Origin: a virus
DNA: 55,018 bases
Reading direction: 5' to 3' (one strand)
IMG/VR virus record: IMGVR_UViG_3300048586_000930
Location: 1-55,018 of that record
This document shows, one piece after another, positions 1 to 45,929 of this stretch (positions are counted from its first letter, which is position 1; the number at the start of each line of letters is the position of its first letter). Below the pieces are notes generated by a model. The model saw only the letters and a list, made by a program, of their open reading frames with translations, ran no database searches and was not told where the DNA came from. The position numbers and the translations under genes are program-made.

Positions 1-3000
1 TTATGATTTCCTCTCGTTCGGAGTCTCATCGGGACGCTCCTCGGCCGCGGAGCCGAAAGACCGCACGAAGTTTATGAGATCGGTGAGGTCGGCTTCGTCC
101 TGGAACACGCCGTCCGGACCGTCCGCGTCGACCACGGTGAAGGGGTCGTCATAGAGCCGTTCGACCTCGATCGTGCCGTGCCGTGCGATGTGGTTCTGCA
201 GCAGCGCGAGGAAGCGCGTCTGCTTTGCGCTAAGTTTCGGGTGCCTCTGAGCGAAGGCGGTGAACTTCTCACGCACTGCCTCGGGGTCCATTCCCACGAT
301 CATTCGTACTGCGAGGTAGAGCGGACCGGCGATCTCGCTGAAGAACTCCTCGAGATGCTCGCGACGCACGTCCGGGCGCTGGGTCAGGATGAGCGAAACC
401 AGCGAGTCGATTTCGAGGTCGGACACTGCTTCGCCCGCACGGATCTTCTTCAGAACCGGACTGGTCTCGAAGTGCTTCTTGAGCTCTGCCTCGACGATTT
501 GCTGATAAGCCTTCATGTCGACGGACTTCAGGCTCGCGGATCGCCGGGCGAACTGCATCTGCGCTGCATCCTCGGTGATGTCGACCACCTTTGGAGGCGC
601 GCCCTGCGAGCCGCCCTTGGCCCTGTGATGCATGATGTCGCGAAGTTGGAGGCGCGCGTCTTCCAAATCGGCGACGGTGACGTCCGTCCAGAACGCATCG
701 GACTTCACGCGCTTGATGACCTCCGCCTTCTCGCGCACCGGGTTCAGGTGCATCAGAAGGGAGGCGAGCCTGTCCATCAGCTCGATCTTCAGGTCGGCGA
801 TTTCGCCCGAGCGCCGCAGCGCGGCGATCTGCATGCGAGCAATGAGGAGGTCGAGCGCAAGGGCATCACCGAAGCCACGAATATTCCGCCACTGCATAAG
901 CGGTGCGATCTCCTGGCGCAGCCGGGCAACGGTGGCCGGGGTGAAGGCCTTCAGCACTTCAGGGCGCGATAGGGCGCGCTTTGCCTTCCATTTCTCTCGG
1001 ACCGCGATGGACTCCTCGGGCAGCGCGTTGATGTCCTGCGCCACGAGTTCGATGACTACGTCGAAGGCTGCGATCTCGCTTTTCTGGAGCGAGGTCTCGG
1101 CAAGGCTCAGGCGCTCCTCGAACACAAGTTGGGCGAGCGGCTTGCCCTGCACGGGTTCCGCCGGTCGGTAGCCCATCTCAAAGCGGGCAAAGTTGCCCCA
1201 ATGATCGAAGATGCGGAAGATGGTCTTATCTTGGCCAGGACCAAAGAGATCCGGACAGAGGCGCGTGCCACGCCCGATCATCTGCCAGAACTTCACTGGT
1301 GATTTCACGGGCTTCGCGAAAACGAGATTCACGATCTCCGGAACGTCAATGCCGGTGTCGAGCATGTCGACCGAGATTGCAATCGTGAGGTCGTTGTTGT
1401 TACCGTCACCCTTGAAGTCGTCGATGAGCTGCTCGGCCCGAGGGTCATAGTTGTCTATGACCTGACAGAATTTGCCAGCATACTGTGGGTACATTTCATC
1501 AAAGAGCTGGCGCACCAGCATCGCGTGCTGGTGGTTGCGCGCGAAAATGATACTCTTGCCAACGAGTTGTCCCGTCGCGTCCTTGATTCCGTTTTCCATG
1601 AGATTTCGGAGAATCGCGCGGTTCGTGTCCTTGTTGTAAATGACTTTGTCGATCTGCTCCGACGAGAAATCGTATTGCGCCGGGTCCTCTCCCTGGTCTT
1701 CGAGTTCCTGGATCTGCTGAGGTGAGAGGCCGTCGAGGGCAATACCGTCCCGCAGGAACTGAGTGGTATGTTCATAGACCTCGAACGGGGTCAGGTAGCC
1801 TTCCTCAACTGCCTGCTCGAGATCGTAATTTGATGTCGGCAGCTGCCCTTCGCATCCGAAGAGGCGGAAGGTGTTGCGTGTAACGAAATCGACCGGTGTC
1901 GCGGTGAGGCCGACCTGGTGACAGTCAAAATATTGAAAGATGTCGCCGTAAACGTTGTAGATGCTCCGATGCGACTCGTCGGCGATGATAAGATCAAAGA
2001 AGCCGGGGTCAAACGACTGAAAGACTTTTTGCATCGCCGGATACGTAGCGAGGAAAACCCGCTCGCTGGCATTCGCCTTCATCCGCGACGTGATGATCCG
2101 CGTAGGCTCCGACAAAAAATCATTGAATGCGTTCTTAGCCTGCTTCCGAAGCTCTTTTCGGTCGCAAAGGAAGAGAACCCGCTTCACCCATCCTGCTCTG
2201 ATGAGCAGCTCTGTAAGCGCGATCGCAACTCGGGTCTTCCCGGTCCCGGTGGCCTGAACCACAAGGGCCCTGCGATGCTTCTGGGTGAACCGCTCCGATA
2301 CCCGCTTGATTGCCTCGAGCTGGTATAGGCGATCAACGATCTGATTACTGATCTCGACTGTGTCAAGAGGCTTCTTCTGATGGCGCTGGTAGTTGGCCAG
2401 GTGCTGGAGGCTGTCCTTCGAATAGAAGCCGTAGAGCTTGCGTGGCGGAAAACCCTGAGAGTCGTCCCAGAGCCAAGTATCGAACCCGTTAGTGTAGAAT
2501 ATTACCGGCCGATGACCGAACCGCCTCTCCAAGCTATCGGCGTAGAGTTTGGCTTGATGGCGTCCGAGTTCTGCGTCGACGGACGTCTTTTTCGCCTCGA
2601 CCACGGCAAGAGGATTTCCGTTGTCATCCCAGAGCACATAGTCGGCGTAGCCGATGCTGGAAGGCGTAGGCTGGCCATCAACCTCGACTTCCTTGCCGAC
2701 CTGCGTCGTGCTTTTGACGCCTTCTGCGATATCCCAGCCGGCGCTCGCGAGCATGCTGTCAATGAGGCGAGTTCGGGTCTCCGCCTCGCTAAAGTTGAGC
2801 TGGTCGGCTGCAGCCTGCGCCGAGCTTGCAAGCTGCTTCAGTTCAGACGCTTCCCTCTGTGCAGAAGATGCTTTCGAGCGCGCTTCCTCAAGCTCTGAAA
2901 GCAACGCGTCCATCTGCGCTTCTTGGGCAGCGAGCTTTTCAAGAACTTGACGGCGTTCACGCTCCTCTGCCTGACCCGGCGTGGCCGGCTGCTGAAATGC

Positions 3001-3396
3001 GGGCAGCTGGTCCGCTTTCGCTTGGCCGTATCGAACACACATCCAGCGGGCGAGATCGTGGGCTTCCTTTAGAAGCCAGAGCGCGTGTTGCGGTCGAACG
3101 GGCTCACCATGGGCAGCCTTGTTGCCGTGCATGCGCAGAGCATGCAGCTTGTCGAGCACAACCTTCGGCGTGATCGCAACGAACGCGTCGTTCTTCAAGA
3201 GATCGACGAATGTCGGCTGATCCTGCTTCGGAAGTCGCAGCGCCTGATAGATGTCCTTCGTCAGATTCTCCGCGAATAGCCGGAGCTTGACGAGCGCGCT
3301 CGCCGGGTCCGCGTGCGCATAGGACTCCGCAAAACCGCCAAGGCCTGCGAGTTCGGGCCAACCTTCACGCAGGATCTCAAAGTTGACCGATCTCAT
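1..3396 (-). CDS. HsdR-like type I restriction nuclease-helicase with N-terminal DUF4145
   Basis: This 1131-residue protein would cleave or translocate DNA as the motor/nuclease subunit of a type I-like restriction system. Residues about 20-120 look like a DUF4145 domain, and 140-200 are charged and heptad-like (probable coiled coil). An HSDR_N PD-(D/E)xK nuclease follows, with D252 and E267-A-K269. A superfamily 2 helicase carries Walker A ATGTGKT near 383, ADESH near 472 and an IGRGTRL motif VI; the tail resembles the EcoEI R C-terminal domain. The ATG overlaps the regulator stop in an ATGA junction, so the two are co-transcribed. The stop codon is the first triplet of the window, so partner hsdM/hsdS genes, if any, would lie beyond the left edge. 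Whether it is an orphan R subunit cannot be decided here. GC is lower than in the phage genes. Confidence 0.9.
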   Translation of the reverse strand: MRSVNFEILREGWPELAGLGGFAESYAHADPASALVKLRLFAENLTKDIYQALRLPKQDQPTFVDLLKNDAFVAITPKVVLDKLHALRMHGNKAAHGEPVRPQHALWLLKEAHDLARWMCVRYGQAKADQLPAFQQPATPGQAEERERRQVLEKLAAQEAQMDALLSELEEARSKASSAQREASELKQLASSAQAAADQLNFSEAETRTRLIDSMLASAGWDIAEGVKSTTQVGKEVEVDGQPTPSSIGYADYVLWDDNGNPLAVVEAKKTSVDAELGRHQAKLYADSLERRFGHRPVIFYTNGFDTWLWDDSQGFPPRKLYGFYSKDSLQHLANYQRHQKKPLDTVEISNQIVDRLYQLEAIKRVSERFTQKHRRALVVQATGTGKTRVAIALTELLIRAGWVKRVLFLCDRKELRKQAKNAFNDFLSEPTRIITSRMKANASERVFLATYPAMQKVFQSFDPGFFDLIIADESHRSIYNVYGDIFQYFDCHQVGLTATPVDFVTRNTFRLFGCEGQLPTSNYDLEQAVEEGYLTPFEVYEHTTQFLRDGIALDGLSPQQIQELEDQGEDPAQYDFSSEQIDKVIYNKDTNRAILRNLMENGIKDATGQLVGKSIIFARNHQHAMLVRQLFDEMYPQYAGKFCQVIDNYDPRAEQLIDDFKGDGNNNDLTIAISVDMLDTGIDVPEIVNLVFAKPVKSPVKFWQMIGRGTRLCPDLFGPGQDKTIFRIFDHWGNFARFEMGYRPAEPVQGKPLAQLVFEERLSLAETSLQKSEIAAFDVVIELVAQDINALPEESIAVREKWKAKRALSRPEVLKAFTPATVARLRQEIAPLMQWRNIRGFGDALALDLLIARMQIAALRRSGEIADLKIELMDRLASLLMHLNPVREKAEVIKRVKSDAFWTDVTVADLEDARLQLRDIMHHRAKGGSQGAPPKVVDITEDAAQMQFARRSASLKSVDMKAYQQIVEAELKKHFETSPVLKKIRAGEAVSDLEIDSLVSLILTQRPDVRREHLEEFFSEIAGPLYLAVRMIVGMDPEAVREKFTAFAQRHPKLSAKQTRFLALLQNHIARHGTIEVERLYDDPFTVVDADGPDGVFQDEADLTDLINFVRSFGSAAEERPDETPNERKS

Positions 3397-4250
3397 GCCA
3401 TTGCCTCCGCAAGCGCTGCTTCGAAAGCAGCGCGATTGGCGACCACGACAGGGATCTCGTGCGCGTTGTCGAGTTTATCAGCGACATCCAGACGTAGGCG
3501 CTTCGTGAAGTAATAAAGAAGCGCCTTGCGCACCAAAATTTCGGCGCGTCCGTTCTTCATCTTGTAATCTTGGGCGATAATCGACTGCTGGGTCTCGCTC
3601 AAAGCCGGATTTGGTGTGAGTGCGACCGCAAAATGATTGTGCCAAAGCGCGTCATCCTGGCCCGATGCGCCCGGCAGGCCAGGCTTTCGGGTCTCCATGC
3701 ATCGCGACAGGATGAAGTCCTTGAACTTGTGGTCGACATGACAGAATGCGCGAACGTGCCAACGCATCCCGTCGTCACCGAGAGCATGGGGCGTGATGCG
3801 CCTCCATTCTGGGGAAGGCTTTTGGGCGCTCATCGACTGGTAGAAGATTTCGGTGGATAGGCCCTCCCGCACAGCCTTGAGCACGTCGCGGAGGACCTCA
3901 GCATCCACGCGCCTGTGCGGTATCGGCAAGGCATCGTGCTCGGGTGCAGCGGCAAGCCAAGCCTCAGTTGCGCCGGCCGGCCCTCCGTTCGAGGCACGCA
4001 GATGCGCGAGATAGACGGATGCATTTGGTTCCACGAAGACCGGTTTGAGCGCGTCCGCGGCTCGGTAACGCTTTGCGCTCTTGTCATAAATCAGGTTTCC
4101 CGGTGCCTTCTCCTCGTAGAGCGTCAGGTCCTTGGATGCCTGCGGCACAGAGACTCCGAATTGGTCGACGATGTCGGCACGGTTGATGCCGCCCTCCCAG
4201 AAGAGGCGGAATTCAATGAACTCAAGCCGTTTCTCGACACCCCAACGCAT
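3393..4250 (-). CDS. WYL-domain transcriptional regulator (BrxR/CapW-like)
   Basis: A 285-residue regulator with an N-terminal winged helix-turn-helix (residues about 8-65, including VDQFGVSVPQASKDL) and a WYL-type domain in the second half, where the usual WYL reads as WHVRAF. The architecture matches the BrxR/CapW family of dimeric repressors that sit in front of anti-phage operons and are thought to sense nucleic acid or nucleotide signals. Its stop overlaps the start of the HsdR-like gene, so it most likely autoregulates the pair from the promoter just upstream. The family assignment is from recognisable sequence pattern; the BREX/CBASS-type regulator role is inferred. Confidence 0.85.
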   Translation of the reverse strand: MRWGVEKRLEFIEFRLFWEGGINRADIVDQFGVSVPQASKDLTLYEEKAPGNLIYDKSAKRYRAADALKPVFVEPNASVYLAHLRASNGGPAGATEAWLAAAPEHDALPIPHRRVDAEVLRDVLKAVREGLSTEIFYQSMSAQKPSPEWRRITPHALGDDGMRWHVRAFCHVDHKFKDFILSRCMETRKPGLPGASGQDDALWHNHFAVALTPNPALSETQQSIIAQDYKMKNGRAEILVRKALLYYFTKRLRLDVADKLDNAHEIPVVVANRAAFEAALAEAMA

Positions 4251-4781: not shown

Positions 4782-6130
4782 GCCGCGGCCCTCCCGGCCT
4801 CGGGCGCCCGTGCGGCGAGGTCGCGGACCAGGCTGCCGAGCCCGTTCAGCCGCAGCCGCACCGCAGCCCCGCCCGCTCGGACGTCGACCCGGTCCACCAG
4901 CAGTCGCACGATGCGCGCCCGCTCGGCGGGGAAGAGCTCATCCCACAGCGGTTCGATCCGTTCCAGTGCCAGCAGGACCTCCTGCTCGGTGACGTCCGGC
5001 GCCGCCGCGCGCGCTGCCCGCCAGGTGCCGACCACCATCTCGGGCTGGCGCAGCAGCGCACCGACCTGGGCGACGACCGCCGCCTCGATCTCGCCGGCAG
5101 GCACGCGCGGGATCGCCGGCCGCTCCGTCGCGTCGCCCTTCAGCACGGCCTGGCTGACTTAGTAGCGGTACATCTGCCCGCCCCGCCCGCGGCTGTGGCT
5201 CGGCGACATGGCGCGGCCGTAGCTGTCGAAGATCAGCCCGCGCAGCAGCGGCGCGGTGGTGTTCCGTGTCCGGTTGACCCGCACTCGCGGGCTGACCTGT
5301 AGGACGGCGTGCACCGCGTCCCACTGCGTCTGCGCGACGATGGCATCGTGCTCGCCGGGATAGGCTGTGCCCTTGTGCACCGCCTCGCCGAGATACACGC
5401 GGTTGCTGAGGATGCGGTAGACGTCGCTCTTCGTGAGCGGGCGGCCCCGCTTCGTGGCGGCACCCTCGTCGCGCAGCACTCCCACCAGCTTGGTGCAGGA
5501 CTCCAACTCGACGAAGCCCTGGAAGATCCGCTGCACCAGAGCGGCCTCGGCGTCGTTCACCACCAGCTTGCGCTCGCGCACGTCGTAGCCGAGCGGCACA
5601 TACCCGCCCATCCACATGCCCCGCTTGCGCGACGCGGCCACCTTGTCGCGGATTCGTTCGCCAATGACCTCACGCTCGAACTGCGCGAAGCTCAGCAGGA
5701 TATTCAGCGTCAGCCGCCCCATGCTGGTGGTGGTATTGAAGCTCTGTGTCACCGACACGAACGTCACACTGTTTGCGTCGAACACCTCGACCAGCTTGGT
5801 GAAGTCCACCAGCGACCGGCTGAGGCGGTCGATCTTGTAGACGACCACCACGTCGACCAGCCCCTCCTGGATGTCGGCGACTAGGCGCTTGAGGGCGGGG
5901 CGTTCGAGGGTGCCGCCGGAGATGCCGCCATCGTCGTATTGGTCGCGCACCAGCACCCAGCCCTCGGCGCGCTGGCTGGCGATGAAGGCCTCGCAGGCCT
6001 CGCGCTGGGCGTCGAGGGAGTTGAACTCCATGTCGAGCCCTTCCTCGCTCGACTTCCGAGTGTAGACGGCGCAGCGGAGCTTCCGAACGGCGGCCGGCAT
6101 CACGCCGGTGGGCTTCGCGTCGCGCTTCAT
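4778..6130 (-). pseudogene. Large serine recombinase interrupted by an in-frame stop
   Basis: The frame starts at an ATG overlapping the DUF2924 stop (ATGA). It has a resolvase catalytic domain (nucleophile serine about residue 27 in VYTRKSS, and the YKIDRLSR helix), then a recombinase domain and zinc-ribbon-like region. At codon 324 the reading MYRY ends in TAA (5159-5161), after which the same frame continues for 126 residues (VSQAVLKGDA onward) to TGA at 4778-4780. Family members usually read YRYYVS at this point, so one base (TAC to TAA) explains the break. The lost part is the C-terminal region that in large serine recombinases contributes to att-site recognition and synapsis control. 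It is probably the prophage integrase, now inactive or making only a 323-residue product. A sequencing error cannot be excluded. Confidence 0.85.
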
Positions 6131-6633
6131 GCGACGCGCCGGCTCGGGCGCAGCCCGAAGAACACGCGCCCGTTCCATCGCGTGCCGGTGATGGCGCGCG
6201 CGATGGCGGACAGCGATTGGTAGGGGCGGCCCTGGTACTCGAAGCCGGCCCGCGTCACGGTCACGACGTGCTCAACACCCTGGTACTCGCGGATCAACTG
6301 CGTGCCGGCGATCGGCTTGTCGTCGCCGCGCCTGCGACGGACGGTGACCTTGCCGCCGTCGAGCTGCTCACCGAGCGCCTCGAGACGGGCCAGCGTCTCG
6401 GGCTTCAGGCCGCCATAGGCCAGCTCCTGGATCCGGTAGGCGAGCCGGCTCTCCAGGAAGCGCCGATTGTAGGGCGGCGGCTCGGTGCCGAAGAGCTCCC
6501 GCCAATGCTGCTTCAGGGCGGGCGTGGCGGCGGTCTTCAGGGCGGCGAGCCGGCCCAGCACGTCGGCGGGCGGGATGGCAGGGGCCGTGAACGCCGGCGG
6601 GGTGGCGGGCTTGGGCTTCGTGGTGCGCGTCAT
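6127..6633 (-). CDS. DUF2924 protein of the recombinase cassette
   Basis: A 168-residue protein. The chosen ATG (6631-6633) is preceded by a GGAGAG ribosome site and overlaps the stop of the 69-residue gene; a longer reading to 6846 is low-complexity and lacks support. DUF2924 is recognisable from the W-x-x-LFG-x-x-PP-x-YNR segment and the basic RRRRGDDKPIAGTQLIREY stretch. The family regularly accompanies large serine recombinases in alphaproteobacteria, and its biochemical role is not established. Four-base overlaps on both sides indicate translational coupling. Confidence 0.85.
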   Translation of the reverse strand: MTRTTKPKPATPPAFTAPAIPPADVLGRLAALKTAATPALKQHWRELFGTEPPPYNRRFLESRLAYRIQELAYGGLKPETLARLEALGEQLDGGKVTVRRRRGDDKPIAGTQLIREYQGVEHVVTVTRAGFEYQGRPYQSLSAIARAITGTRWNGRVFFGLRPSRRVA

Positions 6634-36616: not shown

Positions 36617-37384
36617 CGCTTCTTCCTCCCGCTGATCCCGGAGATCCCCGATGCCCCGTGCCATCGGCGCCAATTGCCGTCTGCTCGTGACCCCCGAGGC
36701 GACCTACGGCACCGCGCCCGCGGGCGACTGGCTGCGCATGCCGTTCCTCTCCTGCGACCTCGGGGCCGAGCAGCCGCTGCTCGATGCCGATGTCATCGGC
36801 GTCGGCAGCAGCCGCGATCCGGCCGCACCCTTCCTCGACACCGTCACCGTGCAGGGCCAGGCGGTGGTGCCGGTGGACCTGATCAACATCGGCCACTGGC
36901 TGCGCCTGCTGCTCGGCCCGCCGACCACCACCGGCACCAGTCCGAACTTCATCCACAGCTTCGGCTCGGGCGCCGCCGCGCTGCCGTCCAACAGCATCGA
37001 GGTCGGCTACCCGGACGTGCCGAACTTCGATCTCTGCACCGGGGTGCGCGCCGACACGCTGGAGATCGATTTCTCGCCGACCGGTCCCGCTACCGCGACC
37101 TTCGGGCTCATGGGGCAGGGCTCGACGCGCGGCGCGAACAGCAGCGGAGGCACGCCGACCAGCGCCGCCTACACGGCGTTCAACAAGGCGCAGGGGGCGA
37201 TCAGCCGGAACGGCTCCGCGCTCGCCCAGGTGACAGGAGCGCGGCTGACCTATGCCAACGGCATGGAGATGGTGCGCACCATCCGCGCCGACCGGAAGGT
37301 GGAGGGCGTGGATCCTGGCATCGCCCGCGCCACCGGCCAGATCACCGCGCGCTTCGCGGACACGGTGCTGCTCACCCAGGCGCA

Positions 37385-37392
37385 GAACAACG
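37385..37392 (+). repeat. 8-bp target duplication, left copy
   Basis: GAACAACG directly outside the left end of the IS66-family element; identical to 39922-39929. Confidence 0.9.
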
Positions 37393-37412
37393 GTAACCAT
37401 CCGGCGAGGGCC
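37393..37412 (+). repeat. IS66 terminal inverted repeat, left
   Basis: GTAACCATCCGGCGAGGGCC; pairs with the right end with three mismatches over 20 bases. Confidence 0.85.
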
Positions 37413-37427
37413 GCGGTGTGGAGTGGA

Positions 37428-39017
37428 TCAGGCGGCGGCGGTGTGGATGGTCTGAGCGCCCTTCCAGTTCCAAGGCAGCAATTCGCGCAGGCGCGATGCC
37501 GGGTGGTCGGCGATGCGGGCCAGCACGTCCGCGAGCCATGCGCGCGGATCGACGTCGTTGAGCTTCGCGGTGACGATGAGCGAGTACATCGCCGCGGCGC
37601 GCTCGCCGCCGCGATCGGAGCCGGCGAACAGCCATGACTTCCGCCCCAGGGCGATGCCGCGCAGGGCGCGTTCGGCGGCATTGTTCGTCAGGCAGATGCG
37701 GCCATCGTCGAGGAACCGCGTGAACGCATCCCAGCGCTTCAGCATGTAGTCCATGGCCTTGGCCAGTTCCGTGTGCCGCGACAGCTTGCCACGGGTCGCG
37801 CGCATCCAGGCCTCGAGGTCGGCCACCAGAGATGCGATGCGCTGCTGCCGGGCAGCCTGCCGCGCCCCGGCCGACAGACCGTTGATGACACGCTCGGCAT
37901 CAAAGACGGCATCGATCCGGCGCACCGCCTCGGCGGCGAGCGGTGCGCGGGCGACTTCGGCGAGCTTGAACAGCTTGCGCCGCCCATGCGCCCAGCAGGC
38001 TGCCTCCGCAATCGGACCTGGATGTCGGCCAGGCGCATAGAGATCATTGAACCCGGCATAGGCGTCCGCCTGCAGGATCCCGCCATAGCCGGCGAGGTGT
38101 TGTCGCGGGTGCTCTGCCGTGCGGTCGCGCGAATAGCGGAACATCGCCGCCGGCGGTGCCGGGCCGGCGAATGGCCGGTCGTCGCGCACATAGGTCCATA
38201 GCCGCGCCGTGACGGTCTTGCCCCTGGCCAGCAGGGGAACGGTGGTGTCGTCGCCATGCAGGCGATCGGCCGCCAGCACATGCGCCTCGATCAGCGAGAC
38301 CAGCGGCCGCAGCATCGCCGTGCAGGTGCCGACCCAGTCGGCGAGCGTCGAGACGCTGAGATCGACACCCTCGCGGCCATAGGTCTCGCTCTGCCGGTTC
38401 AGCGGCAGGTGCTGGCCGAACTTGGCTTCCAGGACCATCGCCAGCAGGTTCGGCCCGGCGCGGCCGCGGGCAATCGGATGGAACGGCGCCGACGGCTGGG
38501 TGATGCTCTCGCAGGATCGGCAGGAGAACCGCTCGCGCACCGTCTGGATCACCTTCCACTGGCGCGGCACCACTTCCAGCGTCTCGGTGATGTCCTCGCC
38601 CAGCTTCGAGAGCGTCCCGCCGCAGCACGGACAGGCGGCCGGTGCCGCAATCACCACCCGCTCGCGCGGCAGATGCGCCGGTAGCGGCGCCCGCACAGGC
38701 TGGCGGCGTGCCGGCTGGTACGGGCGCTCCCCGGCACCGCCATTGAGGGTCGCTTCCTCCGCCTTGGCAGTATCCTCGCTAGTAGCGGCGACCAGTTCGT
38801 CGAGTTCCAGCTCCAACTGGTCGATCAGCTTCCGTCCACGCTCGGAGGAGGCGCCAAACCGGTCATGCCTGAGCTTGGCGATCAGCAGCTTCAGATGCGC
38901 CACCATCGCCTCGGCACCGCAGGCACGGGCCTCTGCCTCCTGCCGCGCCACCTGCTCAGCGGCGAGTGCAGCGCGCAGCGTGTCGATATCGGCGGTGGTG
39001 TCCGGCGCGGGGATCAC
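37428..39017 (-). CDS. tnpC: IS66 transposase TnpC
   Basis: A 529-residue DDE transposase. An N-terminal coiled-coil/HTH part precedes a zinc-binding pair (CPCC and CRSC, about residues 135-172). The catalytic acidic residues sit in HGDDTTVP, ILQADAYAGF and NNAAERALRG. A C-terminal IS66 domain ends in LPWNWKG. Full family length and no internal stop. It lies 60 bases downstream of tnpB. Confidence 0.95.
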   Translation of the reverse strand: MIPAPDTTADIDTLRAALAAEQVARQEAEARACGAEAMVAHLKLLIAKLRHDRFGASSERGRKLIDQLELELDELVAATSEDTAKAEEATLNGGAGERPYQPARRQPVRAPLPAHLPRERVVIAAPAACPCCGGTLSKLGEDITETLEVVPRQWKVIQTVRERFSCRSCESITQPSAPFHPIARGRAGPNLLAMVLEAKFGQHLPLNRQSETYGREGVDLSVSTLADWVGTCTAMLRPLVSLIEAHVLAADRLHGDDTTVPLLARGKTVTARLWTYVRDDRPFAGPAPPAAMFRYSRDRTAEHPRQHLAGYGGILQADAYAGFNDLYAPGRHPGPIAEAACWAHGRRKLFKLAEVARAPLAAEAVRRIDAVFDAERVINGLSAGARQAARQQRIASLVADLEAWMRATRGKLSRHTELAKAMDYMLKRWDAFTRFLDDGRICLTNNAAERALRGIALGRKSWLFAGSDRGGERAAAMYSLIVTAKLNDVDPRAWLADVLARIADHPASRLRELLPWNWKGAQTIHTAAA

Positions 39018-39077
39018 GCCAGGGATCGAATCACACTCCGCGCCGGGCAGGTAGCCGGAATGCGCTGCAGCGCCGAT

Positions 39078-39425
39078 CTATCCGGCGACTTCCGGCCGCC
39101 AGGTCCGCTGCGGGTTCCGCCAGTCGATGCCCTCGAGCATATAGGCCAGCTGGGAACCCGATATCGCCACCGACCCATCGGCCGGTGATGGCCAGATGAA
39201 CCGGCCTTTTTCCAGCCGCTTCGCATAAAGCGACATGCCGAGACCGTCATGCCAGACGATCTTGATCAGGTCGCCGCGGCGGCCGCGAAAGACATAGAGA
39301 TCACCGACATAGGGATCGCGCCCAAGCGCCTGCTGCACCTGCAGCGCCAGCCCGTTCATGCCGCGCCGCATGTCCGTGTGTCCTGCCGCGAGCCATACCC
39401 GAACGCCCGAGGGAACCGGGATCAT
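39078..39425 (-). CDS. tnpB: IS66 accessory protein TnpB
   Basis: A 115-residue IS66 Orf2 protein with its hallmark VWLAAGHTDMRRGMNGLA, YVFRGRRGDLIKIVWHDG and RLEKGRFIWP. Required for transposition in this family, mechanism unclear. Starts in an ATGA overlap with tnpA. Confidence 0.95.
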   Translation of the reverse strand: MIPVPSGVRVWLAAGHTDMRRGMNGLALQVQQALGRDPYVGDLYVFRGRRGDLIKIVWHDGLGMSLYAKRLEKGRFIWPSPADGSVAISGSQLAYMLEGIDWRNPQRTWRPEVAG

Positions 39426-39817
39426 CCGCGCAGCGCCGACAGCACCCGGCGCAGCGCTGTCGCACTGATCCCCTCCGCCACCCGCAACGCCGTGCCATCC
39501 GGCAGCACGATCTCGATGCGCTGGGGATCGGGACCCGCCAGATCAGGTGCAGCATCAGGCAGGGCCGGCTCTGCCTCCATCTGCGGTCCGGGCAGCGCCG
39601 GCACGACATGGAAGGGGATGAATGCCGCCGGCCGGTCCGTCGCGAGCTTCCCGCGACGCCGCGCATCCCGCCATTGCCACAGCAGACCTCGGCTCACATC
39701 GTGCCGGCGCGCGACATCGACGAACCTCACACCAGGCTCCTCGAGTTCCGCAAGGATCCGAAGCTTGTCCTCCAGCCGCCAGCGCCGCCGACGCTCAACG
39801 CCGGTGATGATCTCCAT
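39422..39817 (-). CDS. tnpA: IS66 accessory protein TnpA (HTH)
   Basis: A 131-residue transposase-accessory protein with a helix-turn-helix (WRLEDKLRILAE, then VDVARRHDVSRGLLWQWRD). The C-terminus (IEIVLPDGTALRV) is typical of IS66 TnpA. It is first in the element's operon. Confidence 0.9.
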   Translation of the reverse strand: MEIITGVERRRRWRLEDKLRILAELEEPGVRFVDVARRHDVSRGLLWQWRDARRRGKLATDRPAAFIPFHVVPALPGPQMEAEPALPDAAPDLAGPDPQRIEIVLPDGTALRVAEGISATALRRVLSALRG

Positions 39818-39901
39818 CCCGCCACCCTTCCCCCGCTCTTACCGGCGCTCCAAAGAACGCCCGTAGAAGCAGAAGACAGATCTCGCACTTCCTCGGAAGG
39901 C

Positions 39902-39921
39902 GGCCTTCACCGGAGGGTTAC
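39902..39921 (-). repeat. IS66 terminal inverted repeat, right
   Basis: On the minus strand GTAACCCTCCGGTGAAGGCC; the outer end abuts the right target-duplication copy. Confidence 0.85.
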
Positions 39922-39929
39922 GAACAACG
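39922..39929 (+). repeat. 8-bp target duplication, right copy
   Basis: GAACAACG, identical to 37385-37392. Confidence 0.9.
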
Positions 39930-40212
39930 CGCCGGCGGAGTTCGCCTTCAGCTATGCGATCGACGCCAATCGCAGCCTGACCTTCACGCTGCACGAGGTC
40001 TACCTGGCGCTGGCCAAGACGCCGGTCGAAGGGCCGGGCGGCGTTGAGGTCACCTTCGAGTTCCGGGCTGCCTACAACGCGGCGGCGACGAGGATGATGT
40101 CCGCGGTGCTGCGCAACCAGCAGGCGGGGACGGAGTATGCGTGATCTTGATGACGATTCTCATTGTCGAAAAGGAGACGTCCCACGAGCTTGAGGTTCGG
40201 CCCACGAGGGCG

Positions 40213-42783
40213 TTAGTGCTCTACCTCATACTCATCGAGCATACGATTGCGCGCTCGAATCTCTGCCGCCTCACGTCTTAGACGATCACGATCGGCAAAC
40301 GGCGTCGCGTGATCGTCGGCACGGGCCTCGAGGATCCTGGCGCGCAGCAGTTCCTCCTGGGCGTTAAGGTTTCCGGCCTTCGCCAACTCGTTCTCGGCAC
40401 CGTCGTAGTCGCGCTGCACGAGCCTGATACGGGCCTCGATTCCAGCGACACCCCCCGCTGCCCCGCGAGCTTTCAGGAATTCAACGTCCTCGCGCGCGAC
40501 GCGAACGTCACCAGCGGAGGCGGCTGCCACGGCACGTAGCCTCCGAATGAACATCTGACCGCCGGACCCACGCTGGAGCACGTCGGTGAGCATGCGCTGA
40601 GCCCCAGCGAAATCCTGGCTTTGGCGCATAATCAGCATCGCCCTGCGACCGTCGGCATACGCTTCCTGGCCCCGCAGGCTGTGCAGGGTACGAATGACCT
40701 TGTCCGCCTCGTTAAACTCGCCTTGCGCGATGAGCATGCCGGCTTGCACATCGAGCAGAACTGGGTTCCTGCCTATGTAGTCCGCCTGATCCCGAACTAG
40801 CTCGTGCAGCTGCGGCCACATCCCCAGGCGCTGGTAGCAACGGGCGAGGTCGCCCACGACCAGCTTAATGTATTTTCTGACTTCCCGCGCCTTCAGTAGC
40901 ATGTCTATGGCGCCCTTGAGATCGCCTTTGCCGACACGCAGGTGGAAGGCCCGCAGGTAAAAGCGGGAGCGATAGCTGCGCTCGTCAAAGAAATCGAGCA
41001 GACGCTCGGCCTCATCGTTTCCCAGTCGCACGTGAGCGCGTACGACGTACGACAGGATCTCCTCGCGTGCAGTCTCATCCATCCGTGCCTTGAGCGCCGA
41101 CGACCCCCAAGCGACAACCCTGCGAAGCGCCTCGGGATCGTCATGGCCACGATCGTACGTCTCCTTAACAACCTCCTGCAGCGTGGATGGCAGTAGCAGG
41201 TCCCTGAATTCGGTTGGCAGGGTGCCGCCCTCGATCGCAGCCATGAAGGCAAGCGCATCCAATAGCTCCGCGCGCAATTCGTCGTTTTGACGGGCGCGCT
41301 CGAGTTCTTCCCTCAGCGCCTTTGAGAACGCAGCCATCAACTCTTTAGAGCCGTAACCGTGGAGCCGCCGGAAAAGCGATCGAATGGGCGCGGAGATGAG
41401 ATAGCTCGCGCCAGACACCTCAACCAAGCATGCGAGGATGAGCCCAGACACAGCGTCGGCAAAATCCACGGTCGAGATGTTCGTGCGCTGGAGCACGATG
41501 CGTTTCAGCGTGTCGCCGGCGAGCTGCGGCACCCAGCTTAAGACGGACAGCACGTCTCGCTCCACCGGTGTGCGGTGAGCGAAGTCAAGGGAATCGCCGA
41601 GTACCTCCTCCTGCAGGGAGAATAGGTCCGCGGGGTGGGCATCCAGAACCGCCGGTCCTCGCTGCGCAACCAGTGCCGCGGTCGCCCGGGCGATTCCTGG
41701 ATGGCCGCCGATGGTGCGGATGATGTCCGTGCTCGGGAGCTCGGGCTTTGCCCCGAAGACTCCCGTCGCCTGAATCATCAAGGTGCGGACGTCCTGCTCC
41801 TTTAGAGGCGGAACCGGAATTTGAATGACATTCGGATGTGCGCGCAACTCATTCTCGTGGAGGAGGCGATTCGATACGACGACCAGCTTCACCTGTCGGT
41901 TGTCCGCCAGCTCGCCGAAAAGGATGGGCACCCAGGGCTTCAAGAAGCCTCTGTCCTCGAAGATGCCATTGCCAGTGACGATCATGACTGCTTGCCCGAG
42001 TTCGGCGAAATGAGCGAGGCGGCGCGCTATCTCCTGTGCCTGTTCGTGCAGCGCCGCGGCGCCGAAAGCACGGAGATCGTCGCCAATCGAATGGAGCGGC
42101 AGGTCGGTCTCGACCTCCTGCCTTAGCGCGCGGTATATGTCGGCCAAGTCCGCAAACTGCGGCAGAACAAACTCCGGACCGAAACCCAATTCTGGCGTCG
42201 CCGGGAATGCCTCGGTAAGCAGGCGTCGACTGAAGGTGCGGCGACCGATACCGAGTGGGCCCGCGAGCACTAGTACATTCGGCGTCTGCTCCGTACGCAA
42301 CACGACGTCGTTCACTAAAGCCACGGCAGCGTCGACAAGCGCCCCACGACCAAAGACCTGTGCGCCTGGCAGGTGACTTAAGGGACCCGTGATAAGCGCT
42401 TTGCGAATGTATCTCGCAACCTCGCGCGGTCCTTCGCCAACACGGCCAACCCAGTAGTCGCGCATCCAGGCGGGCAGGTCGGCGTGTGTCACAGTGGGAT
42501 CGATCGGGATCACGATGACGCGGAACTTCGGATCCTTGATCTTGGAAATGCGGGCCCGATCAATCTCAAACCCGACCCATGGCGACTTCAAAGCCTTCTT
42601 TGTCGCGAACAGCGCAAACATGGTTGCCTTGCCAACCCGCTGCTCCATCGCGGAGATCAGATCCTCACCATTGCGGAAGCTCCGAGGATAAAAGTAGGCC
42701 AATCCGTCGGGGAGGAAGCGTTGGATTTTGGTCACAAAACTCTCGTCACCGCCCTCCAGGGACAGGAAAACGGTAGGTAGCAT
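40213..42783 (-). CDS. TIR-NTPase-helical repeat protein (STAND-like defence protein)
   Basis: An 856-residue three-part protein. Residues 1-115 form a TIR domain (TVFLSLEGGDESFV, SFRNGEDLISAM, and SPWVGFEIDRA with candidate catalytic E73, the NADase position). Residues about 142-480 are a STAND/NLR-type NTPase starting VFGRGALVD; its P-loop is an unusual GPLGIGRRT (175-183) with arginine where lysine is normal. The remainder is helical and TPR-like. TIR-STAND proteins of bacteria sense invaders and kill the cell by NAD+ depletion. A strong GAAGGAG site fixes the start. It points against the tail operon, has lower GC, and separates tail tube from tail chaperone. Confidence 0.85.
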   Translation of the reverse strand: MLPTVFLSLEGGDESFVTKIQRFLPDGLAYFYPRSFRNGEDLISAMEQRVGKATMFALFATKKALKSPWVGFEIDRARISKIKDPKFRVIVIPIDPTVTHADLPAWMRDYWVGRVGEGPREVARYIRKALITGPLSHLPGAQVFGRGALVDAAVALVNDVVLRTEQTPNVLVLAGPLGIGRRTFSRRLLTEAFPATPELGFGPEFVLPQFADLADIYRALRQEVETDLPLHSIGDDLRAFGAAALHEQAQEIARRLAHFAELGQAVMIVTGNGIFEDRGFLKPWVPILFGELADNRQVKLVVVSNRLLHENELRAHPNVIQIPVPPLKEQDVRTLMIQATGVFGAKPELPSTDIIRTIGGHPGIARATAALVAQRGPAVLDAHPADLFSLQEEVLGDSLDFAHRTPVERDVLSVLSWVPQLAGDTLKRIVLQRTNISTVDFADAVSGLILACLVEVSGASYLISAPIRSLFRRLHGYGSKELMAAFSKALREELERARQNDELRAELLDALAFMAAIEGGTLPTEFRDLLLPSTLQEVVKETYDRGHDDPEALRRVVAWGSSALKARMDETAREEILSYVVRAHVRLGNDEAERLLDFFDERSYRSRFYLRAFHLRVGKGDLKGAIDMLLKAREVRKYIKLVVGDLARCYQRLGMWPQLHELVRDQADYIGRNPVLLDVQAGMLIAQGEFNEADKVIRTLHSLRGQEAYADGRRAMLIMRQSQDFAGAQRMLTDVLQRGSGGQMFIRRLRAVAAASAGDVRVAREDVEFLKARGAAGGVAGIEARIRLVQRDYDGAENELAKAGNLNAQEELLRARILEARADDHATPFADRDRLRREAAEIRARNRMLDEYEVEH

Positions 42784-43061
42784 CGTAGCTCCTTCTTGAT
42801 TGACCTGATCGAACTAAGTCACAGCCCTGAATACTGAATCATTCGCCGACATCTACATCTCAGTATCACGATCGCTGAGAGCGGCCGCAAGCGCGCCGGT
42901 GTTCGCGATGTGCAAGTTGGTTTTCAATCTACCCCGGCCAGCTGCTCCGTCGCGCCTACGCTAGACCGCTTCGCGCCGGCGGTGAGGCCGAGCCATGGCG
43001 TGTTCGCCTCCCACCGCTTCGGCCTGAGCGGATCACCCCCACGAAGTTAATGGAGAACGGT
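42784..43061. promoter_or_regulatory. Upstream region of the TIR gene and leader of the tail chaperone
   Basis: Gene-free divergent region of 278 bases. The half next to the TIR gene (about 42784-42930) is AT-richer and should hold its promoter, though no confident hexamer pair was found. The half next to the chaperone is GC-rich like the phage and ends in the chaperone's GGAG ribosome site. The compositional step may mark the cargo boundary. Confidence 0.4.
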
Positions 43062-43439
43062 ATGCTCACCCTCGACCTTCCGGCCGAGCCGTATTGGCTC
43101 GACCTGCCGCGCGGCGTCCGCGTCGAGATCCGACCCGTGACCACCGCGGTCATGGCCGCGGCCCAGGCCGCCGCCGCGCGCCGCCTCGCCGCGATCCGCA
43201 TCGCCGACCCCGACCTCGACCCCGACATGTCGCGCGGCCTGTCCTTCGCCTTCCTGGTCAAGGCACTCGCCCGCCACGCCGTCACCGCCTGGGAGGGCGT
43301 CGGTGACGCCGCCGGCAAGCCGCTGGCGCTCTCCCCGGAGGCCGTCGAACGCCTGATGGACCTCGACGACATCGCGGCCGCCTTCTGGGATCGCGCCACC
43401 GCCCCTGTCGCCGCGGTGGCCGCCGAGGGAAACGGCTGA
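43062..43439 (+). CDS. Tail assembly chaperone (lambda gpG-like)
   Basis: A 125-residue protein with a beta-rich N-terminus (LTLDLPAEPYWLDLPRGVRV) and helical remainder, located just upstream of the tape measure gene. ATG 43062 has GGAGAACGG directly upstream; ATG 43050 is an alternative. Near its end lies the heptamer GGGAAAC in the correct phase for -1 slippage, so a fraction of ribosomes should continue into the next frame. It would bind the tape measure during tail assembly. Confidence 0.8.
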   Translation: MLTLDLPAEPYWLDLPRGVRVEIRPVTTAVMAAAQAAAARRLAAIRIADPDLDPDMSRGLSFAFLVKALARHAVTAWEGVGDAAGKPLALSPEAVERLMDLDDIAAAFWDRATAPVAAVAAEGNG

Positions 43440-43754: not shown

Positions 43755-45929
43755 ATGGCCGACGCTACCCGCCGCGTCTCGGTCCGCCTGTCGCTGGACG
43801 ACGCTGCCCGGGTCAAGGCCGGGCTGCGCGAGGTCGGCGAGACCGGCCAGCGCTCCCTCGACCAGATCAAGGGTGGCGCCGAACGCGCCTCCCGCTCGCT
43901 CGACCTGCTGGACGTCGCGACCCGCGGCATCCAACTCGCCGGCGTGGCGGTGGCGGCCCGCGCCCTGGTCCAGGCCGGCGACGCGCTGACCCAGAGCCTC
44001 TCGCGCCTGCAGAACGCCACCGGTTCGGTGGAGCGCGCCGGGCAGGTCTACGAGGCGCTGTACCGCAACGCGCTCTCCACCGGCGTCGCGGTCTCCGAGA
44101 GCGTCGACGCCTTCCAGCGCTTCTCGATCGCCGCACGGGAGATTGGCGCCACCTCCGCCCAGGTGGTGCGCCTCGTCGGCGGCCTGCAGCGCGTCGCCAT
44201 CGTCTCTGGCGCCTCCACCCAGGAGATCTCCTCGGCCACGCTGCAGCTCGCCCAGGCGCTGGCCTCGGGCGTGCTCCAGGGCGACGAGCTGCGTTCCATC
44301 CTCGAGGCGATGCCGCTGCTGGCCGAGGGTCTGGCCAAGGAACTCGGCGTCTCCATGGGCGAGCTGCGCAAGCTCGGCTCCGAGGGCAAGCTCACCGCCG
44401 AGCGGGTCTTCCCGGCGCTGCTGCGCGCCACCGAACGCCTCGGCGCCGAGCTCGATCGCGCCCCGCTCTCGCTCGGCCGCGCCTTCGGCCAGCTCTCCGC
44501 CGCGACGGAGAATTTCCTTGGCCAGCTCGACCGCGCCATCGGCCTGTCCAATGCCCTGGCCCGCGCCCTGTCGGCTGCCGCCCGTGCGGTGGATGGCGTC
44601 CGCCAGGGCGCCGGCCTGCTCAGCGAGGAGGAACGCTTCGCCGGCATGCGCCGCCAGGCCGAGGCACTGGCCGCGCAGATCGCCCGGTTGGAAAGCCAGC
44701 AGGACGGCCGCGCCAGCCTCACCGCCCCGGTCCGCCGCGGCAGCATCCGTCCTGGCCTGGTCGGCACCGCCGAGCAGCAGGCCGGGGTGGATCGTGCGGC
44801 CCGGCTGGAGGAGCTGCGCCGGCAATACACGGACCTCCAGGCCGAGATCACCCGCGGCGAGCAAGCCGCCGGCGAGCGCCAGCGCAGCGAGCAGGAGAAC
44901 GCCGCGACCGCCGCCGCCGACGCCCGCCGCCGGCGTGCCACGCAGGACGTCCAGGACCTCACCCGCGACCTAGACGACCGCTTCCGGATCAACCGCGAGT
45001 ACGAGGAGCGGGTCCGCCGCCTGCGCGAGGCCGAGGCCGCGGGTGGCGTCACCGCCGCCGAGCGCACCCGCCTCGAGACCCTGGCGCTGCAGGAACGCGA
45101 CGAGGCGCTGCGCCGGCTGGAGCCGCGCGTCGCCGCCGTCCGTCGCGCCAGCACCGAGGGTGCGCGGGAGGCCCGCGAGGCCGAGCGCGAGCTCAACGAG
45201 CTGCTGCGCGAGCGCGAGCGGCTCATCCAGCAGAACGAGACCGCCTATGAGCGCTACCAGCGCCGGATGGCCACCCTGTCCAGCCTGGTGGAGCGGGCGG
45301 AACGGGCCGGACGGGCGGTGCCCGACGAGACCATCCAGCGCGAGGCGGTCGCGGCGATGGAGGAGCTGGAACGCGCCGAGGAGCGTGTGCAGCGCGGCGC
45401 GGAACGCACCTCGGACACGGTTCGCGAGCTCGGCCTGACCTTCTCCAGCGCCTTCGAGGACGCCATCGTCAAGGGCGAGAAGTTCTCCTCGGTGCTGGAG
45501 GGGCTGCTGCAGGACATCACCCGCATCCTCGCCCGCAAGGTCATCACCGAGCCGCTCGGCAACGCCGTCTCGGCCGGCCTGTCCGGCATCTCCTTCGACA
45601 GCCTGTTCACCGATGTCGGCTCCTGGCTCGGTGGCCTGTTCCGCGCCGAGGGCGGGCCGGTCGCCGCTGGGCAGCCCTATGTCGTCGGCGAGCGCGGACC
45701 CGAATGGTTCGTCCCGCGCCAGGCAGGCACCGTCCTGCCCAACGGCGTCACCCCGGGCGGAGGAGGCCCGACCATCCACACCAGCATCAGCATCGACGCC
45801 CGCGGCGCCGATGCCGGCGTCGAGGCGCGGCTGCGCCTGCTCGCCGGGCAGATCGCGCGGCAGGCCTCGGCGATGACGCTGGACGCCATCCGCCGCGGCG
45901 GCGCGGCCTACGACACGGTGCGCGGGTAG
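43755..45929 (+). CDS. Tail tape measure protein
   Basis: A 724-residue protein with the conserved tape-measure N-terminal domain (about 60-270, including VVRLVGGLQRVAIVSGAS and EISSATLQLAQALASGVLQG). A long charged coiled-coil follows (about 370-560). The C-terminus holds EKFSSVLEGLLQDITRILAR and a glycine-rich AEGGPVAAGQPYVVGERGP segment typical of lambda-like tails. Length sets the tail length; 724 residues would suggest about 100 nm by the usual rule of thumb. Confidence 0.9.
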   Translation: MADATRRVSVRLSLDDAARVKAGLREVGETGQRSLDQIKGGAERASRSLDLLDVATRGIQLAGVAVAARALVQAGDALTQSLSRLQNATGSVERAGQVYEALYRNALSTGVAVSESVDAFQRFSIAAREIGATSAQVVRLVGGLQRVAIVSGASTQEISSATLQLAQALASGVLQGDELRSILEAMPLLAEGLAKELGVSMGELRKLGSEGKLTAERVFPALLRATERLGAELDRAPLSLGRAFGQLSAATENFLGQLDRAIGLSNALARALSAAARAVDGVRQGAGLLSEEERFAGMRRQAEALAAQIARLESQQDGRASLTAPVRRGSIRPGLVGTAEQQAGVDRAARLEELRRQYTDLQAEITRGEQAAGERQRSEQENAATAAADARRRRATQDVQDLTRDLDDRFRINREYEERVRRLREAEAAGGVTAAERTRLETLALQERDEALRRLEPRVAAVRRASTEGAREAREAERELNELLRERERLIQQNETAYERYQRRMATLSSLVERAERAGRAVPDETIQREAVAAMEELERAEERVQRGAERTSDTVRELGLTFSSAFEDAIVKGEKFSSVLEGLLQDITRILARKVITEPLGNAVSAGLSGISFDSLFTDVGSWLGGLFRAEGGPVAAGQPYVVGERGPEWFVPRQAGTVLPNGVTPGGGGPTIHTSISIDARGADAGVEARLRLLAGQIARQASAMTLDAIRRGGAAYDTVRG

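Follow-up and report, generated by a model that had tools for sequence, protein, structure and literature searches.

A predicted TIR-NLR immune receptor gene in an exchange slot within the tail operon of a temperate siphophage group

Hotspots of gene turnover in prophages and satellites have been described at psu-int of P4, Q-A of P2, between cI and integrase in Vibrio and near the integrase in Bacillus; these hotspots adjoin packaging, repressor or integrase genes, and none lies within a tail operon (PMC9122126). One of the systems carried there, the TIR-NLR of a P4 satellite, confers phage protection on E. coli (Rousset et al. 2022, PMC9122126). Here we analyzed a complete virus record 55,018 bases long (the window), in which a gene of this kind lies antisense in a prophage, flanked by the genes for the tail tube and the tail chaperone (Table 1). 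The encoded protein is a TIR-NLR of known kind and not a new protein class; it is the position that constitutes the finding, as comparison with related loci indicates an exchange slot inside the phage tail operon. We consider it probable, at roughly 0.75, that the gene encodes a TIR-NLR immune receptor made of one protein and forms exchangeable cargo of a dedicated tail-tube/tail-chaperone slot in a temperate siphophage group.

Table 1. Positions in the window of the predicted TIR-NLR gene, its parts and the surrounding tail genes.
Feature	Positions	Strand	Basis and remarks
Tail-tube gene, interrupted (36651-37392 + 39930-40144)	36651..40144	+	96-98% identical intact relatives; annotated RcKvothe homologue
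IS66 in tail-tube gene	37393..39921	-	8-bp target duplication GAACAACG at 37385-37392 and 39922-39929; ends GTAACC(A/C)TCCGG; plasmid IS66 relatives
Cargo slot, tail-tube stop to tail-chaperone start	40145..43061		Insert in 98/103 related loci, 68 distinct forms
TIR-NLR gene (TIR, STAND NTPase, TPR-like)	40213..42783	-	856 aa, no internal stop
TPR-like helical repeat region, ~residues 540-855, borders approximate	40219..41166	-	Weak TPR models, structure model, 9m0n profile
STAND-type NTPase region, ~residues 139-400, borders approximate	41584..42369	-	9m0n profile match; weak AAA_22
Walker A, residues 175-183, GPLGIGRRT (Arg for Lys)	42235..42261	-	Alignment, 9m0n profile match
TIR domain, residues 1-131	42391..42783	-	Pfam TIR_2 at residues 5-95; fragment model matches RPP1, SPARTA and SARM1 TIRs
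Candidate catalytic Glu73 codon (SPWVGFEIDRA)	42565..42567	-	Invariant in alignment; matched by a Glu in both 9m0n and Cat1
Ribosome-binding site of TIR-NLR gene	42789..42796	-	AAGAAGGAG, read from the sequence, close upstream of ATG
Tail assembly chaperone gene	43062..43439	+	Matches annotated RcKvothe chaperone region at 36%; gene order shared
Tape measure protein gene	43755..45929	+	RcKvothe-like location and repeat character; conservation among relatives

A sequence-only reading of the window had proposed a full-length TIR protein with a preserved candidate catalytic glutamate, a STAND-like NTPase and a long helical-repeat C-terminal half, of lower GC than the phage, and these features were borne out. 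The match to Pfam TIR_2 (1.5e-8) exceeds the family cut-off, and the gene has a GC of ~0.61 against 0.70-0.76 on both sides. The reading frame is more than a chance one, since a homologue with 74% identity spans its full length and omega against that homologue (L002) is ~0.08, with dS near saturation, denoting purifying selection. A scan for a sigma-70-type promoter upstream of the gene and for a terminator, poorly suited to this host, returned nothing above chance. Regarding the family, comparison with Avs, NACHT-type and TIR-STAND proteins had been suggested; the TIR-STAND part stood, through Pfam, PADLOC TIR-NLR (4.7e-7, residues 14-189 of the window protein only) and the solved structure 9m0n, and neither Avs nor NACHT families appeared among Pfam and PADLOC matches up to E=1. 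Within the NTPase, AAA_22 matched weakly at residues 166-251, under its Pfam cut-off, and assignment to the STAND type comes from a family-profile match to 9m0n across this region.

The sole solved relative recovered with a single-sequence search was 9m0n/9umd, an 824-aa 'Tetratricopeptide repeat protein' (1.4e-8, residues 6-336), for which no paper was found in the literature searched. A five-sequence family profile matched 9m0n at 6.7e-48 over residues 6-679, a value that describes the family and not the window protein alone, since the profile includes the TIR-NLR of locus L044, which is nearer to 9m0n (1.9e-29) than the window protein is. The sensor half, which had been called unrecognized, turned out to be TPR-like, as in this solved TIR-TPR protein: the C-terminal third is all-helical in the AlphaFold model, and weak TPR models fall on residues 600-800. 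The full-length AF2 model reached a mean pLDDT of 59, too poor for matching, and its best structure match, weak, was the STAND-TPR protein 6mfv. For a fragment of residues 1-340 (TIR plus NTPase; pLDDT 61), the plant TIR-NLR RPP1 ranked top (5.5e-6), followed by SPARTA TIR-APAZ and, lower, by SARM1 TIR and ThsB, with query-normalized TM-scores of ~0.3 against TIR proteins. The low confidence of these models is attributable to the three sequences that were usable.

When the window protein was aligned with relatives 74, 74, 22 and 24% identical to it, W69-V70-x-F72-E73 was invariant across the five proteins. The P-loop carries Arg in place of Lys (GxxGxGRxT/S) in every TIR-NLR relative aligned and in 9m0n, so that the NTPase may bind nucleotide without ordinary hydrolysis. 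This family-wide substitution is compatible with a TIR domain acting as a scaffold or signal-maker, for instance by producing a cyclic nucleotide that signals to a distinct effector rather than by consuming NAD+ to kill the cell, and Thoeris ThsB models also match, weakly. We regard such a role as quite improbable, because Glu73 is invariant and aligned with a Glu in both 9m0n and the CRISPR-associated TIR protein Cat1, and because no partner gene stands alongside in the window. Indeed, the neighbors there are tail genes and IS66, with no ThsA-type effector gene among them; none is listed at L002 and L003 either, where the neighbors of the homologues differ.

Related loci were gathered by a search with the tail-tube protein, taking the best 80 of 224 viral loci plus 40 stretches of host genomes, and counts were made over the 103 loci in which tube and chaperone were both present, an insert being defined as at least 200 bp between them. 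Inserts were found in 98/103 loci of this sample, in at least 68 distinct forms of 586-7133 bp (mostly 0.6-4 kb), and the tube/chaperone junction exceeded 400 bp in 98/103. As controls, neighboring junctions proved nearly uniform: the distance from the upstream gene to the tube departed from the median by over 200 bp in 0/100 loci, that from chaperone to tape measure in 8/91, and those of downstream gene pairs in 5/64 and 1/59. The empty form is also present inside the group (L082, L142, L038), the tube stop codon touching the chaperone ATG in L082 and L142; below a tube identity of ~60%, tube and chaperone are adjacent in most relatives, including the annotated Rhodobacter phage RcKvothe, and ~200 bp separate them in one Methylobacterium plasmid copy. 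The antisense placement noted previously is confirmed by the reading frame, and RcKvothe synteny supports the names of the tail tube and tail chaperone; the idea that this placement is unusual found no support within this phage group, since the slot is filled in nearly all related loci, often with defense genes. We found no description of a tail-tube/chaperone hotspot in the literature searched, which was mostly open-access with few preprints.

Mean GC was 0.63 in the inserts, 0.70 in the tube and 0.73 in the chaperone, with the insert below the tube in 64/68, and a GGAG-type site lies directly before the chaperone ATG in most filled loci. With gene calls made by a simple GC-frame score, the largest insert gene was antisense in 51/68 (two-sided binomial P ~4e-5, for loci that are not all independent). 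L013 and L149 share a common insert and an identical chaperone with tubes only 84% identical, and the chaperones of the empty L082 and the filled L156 are 99% identical while their tubes are 82% identical; both patterns would fit cargo exchange in which the conserved tail genes serve for homologous recombination. The prophage group occurred in 35/300 sampled genomes of the alphaproteobacterial family of L002, and a single genome had as many as six matching loci. Moreover, the chaperone/tape-measure junction is a second, rarer insertion site (the 8/91 loci above: L008, L006, L016/L129, L041, L054, L147, L153), where an antisense ATP-binding Schlafen/AlbA-like protein was recognized by eye in L008:5264-7243.

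The IS66 element in the tail-tube gene had escaped the sequence-only reading. A tail tube split by IS66 was found in the window only (1/103 related loci), and the prophage is therefore probably unable to build tails now, in which case the TIR-NLR gene would for now benefit the lysogen and not a spreading phage. The nearest relatives of the IS66 element are from Roseomonas; these, together with a homologue of the TIR-NLR gene in Komagataeibacter, suggest Acetobacteraceae as the host group. IS66 was ruled out as the carrier of the TIR gene, which it does not bracket, since the target duplication of the element itself lies within the tube gene. At the other end of the window, three minus-strand reading frames were recognized by eye: a helicase resembling the R subunit of type I restriction systems (1-3396) and a WYL-type regulator (3393-4250), both of lower GC than the phage, and a serine recombinase (5159-6178), perhaps an integrase beside a host defense region.

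Relatives of the TIR-NLR gene were identified beyond prophages. A full-length homologue (74% identical) is surrounded by metabolic genes in L002, a Rhodospirillales MAG, and one of 73% (L003) is carried by a Komagataeibacter saccharivorans plasmid among mazF, IS elements and a UvrD-type helicase cluster. Genome G063 holds a homologue of 82-85% broken by an IS630-type element, with three tyrosine recombinases nearby (L124:5816-9601), genome G009 an intact one of 35%, and L004 a distant relative (24%) near a type I restriction system. Among viral contigs, no close relative was found with a single-sequence search, and a search with a three-sequence alignment returned only the contig of L044, already known; a phage collection yielded none. 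Relatives on a plasmid and in chromosomes make it a mobile immune gene not tied to phages. Together with the split tail tube and with the lack of the same gene in the phage relatives fetched, they are what would be expected if the TIR-NLR were a passenger from a chromosome or plasmid, unconnected with phage biology, that entered a prophage when it was already dead. We hold this to be very improbable, given that the gene occupies precisely the slot found filled in 98/103 relatives with intact tube genes, that the slot of L044 houses another TIR-NLR, likewise oriented, and that the IS66 insertion is an event of its own in the tube gene.

It had been proposed that the tail modules of related prophages be inspected for other defense genes, and these proved to be present: direct per-protein matches to defense models or domains were obtained in 17/68 distinct inserts, window included. 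The TIR-NLR of L044 (PADLOC 5e-27) has clear TPRs. Other inserts encode an inactive sirtuin-STAND (L049, 1.6e-149), a SIR2-STAND (L072), SIR2 plus LmuB (L014), LmuB of Lamassu (L074 and L045, 2.5e-108 and 7.6e-165), an AAA protein with IetS of IetAS (L066, 4.6e-33), GmrSD (L078, 2e-157), a caspase (L059), a patatin (L063), a Ser/Thr kinase (L155, PD-T4-6 5e-39), a type IIG-like methylase (L139), a double-GTPase system with metallophosphoesterase (L144), HEPN/Toprim (L010), NERD (L085) and, weakly, Mrr (L062). In a pooled scan of the inserts, Bil and RmrA-like proteins were also matched, and gene features suggest that they belong to L023 and L156, respectively; L145 was discarded as a Bil system, the protein in question being a mercuric reductase. 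Furthermore, toxin-antitoxin pairs were common, with ParE in L037 (Pfam) and, recognized by eye, ParDE-like and MazF/Phd-like pairs in L019, L080 and L043, together 16 loci.

The cargo extends to mercury-resistance genes including the mercuric reductase (L145, 2.5e-118), a TctC-type binding protein (L137), histidine kinases (L009, L135 and L077), TauE, MauE/glutaredoxin and a dehydrogenase (L031). In L009, a large sense-strand reading frame was rejected as a spurious frame, the antisense genes including a hybrid histidine kinase. Mercury resistance, transport and kinase cargo denote that the slot is not for defense alone, and all of these genes would suit a general accessory-gene (moron) site, in which defense is merely the commonest accessory class and there is no selection for defense. 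At least 17/68 distinct inserts with direct defense matches plus several toxin-antitoxin pairs, counted in the slot alone, lower the standing of such a site, which we judge somewhat unlikely. Many inserts have no recognized domain; among them, a 1453-aa antisense protein (L017:1049-5410 / L022:5761-10122) gave no Pfam, PADLOC or PDB match and is a candidate for an unknown system.

In TIR and STAND immune proteins, sensing by the repeats is followed by oligomerization of the STAND module and consumption of NAD+ by the TIR domains. By analogy, a role of the TIR-NLR cargo in superinfection immunity, as the sequence-only reading had suggested, is plausible. The lysogen would make the protein from the gene's own promoter, the TPR half would bind a component of an incoming phage, and the STAND module would oligomerize with bound nucleotide, upon which the TIR domains would assemble and presumably consume NAD+. 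The infected cell would stop growing or die, and protection of the lysogen population would protect the prophage, with new cargo entering by homologous recombination via the conserved flanking tail genes. We further advance, tentatively and as something that we believe to be unlikely, that the tube/chaperone junction combines a slot with a built-in switch. As the cargo is mostly antisense (51/68), strong late transcription would run against it, and on induction this could silence the resident immunity and spare the phage's own lytic cycle. If this were true, inserts without a known domain, such as that of the 1453-aa protein, would be undiscovered defense systems.

Since two conserved tail genes bracket each insert, a simple rule suffices to collect known systems and uncharacterized proteins, which makes the slot a ready-made search site and one where late-transcription silencing of the cargo is directly testable. 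Like the hotspots of PMC9122126, the slot is a small high-turnover region between two conserved genes (0.6-7.1 kb here) with many defense systems; in terms of that work, there is turnover between two conserved phage genes, a size of ~1-5 kb, and diverse defense systems mixed with other cargo. Unlike those hotspots, it lies midway along the tail structural operon of alphaproteobacterial prophages, at one junction whose empty form is clear, and its cargo is mostly antisense. Accessory defense genes in or beside the late region are also known as late-operon morons, as Tab of JBD26 (PMC10884400) and the Tai loci (PMC11364771); those are small single genes, whereas here entire systems of several kilobases take one another's place at a single point.

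With regard to the protein, the window gene shares with the PADLOC and P4-like-satellite TIR-NLRs (PMC9122126) a single-gene design with an N-terminal TIR, a STAND-type NTPase and a repeat C-terminus, and differs from the former in that the PADLOC model covers only part of it. It also has in common with the satellite TIR-NLR that its carrier is a phage-related element and its site a variable slot, but the element here is a siphophage-type prophage and the slot lies within the tail operon. Thoeris differs in its separate ThsA effector gene, which is absent beside the window TIR gene. The domain order, the Glu, the Arg-type P-loop and the family-profile match over residues 6-679 are held in common with 9m0n/9umd, to which the window protein alone has low identity (1.4e-8, residues 6-336).
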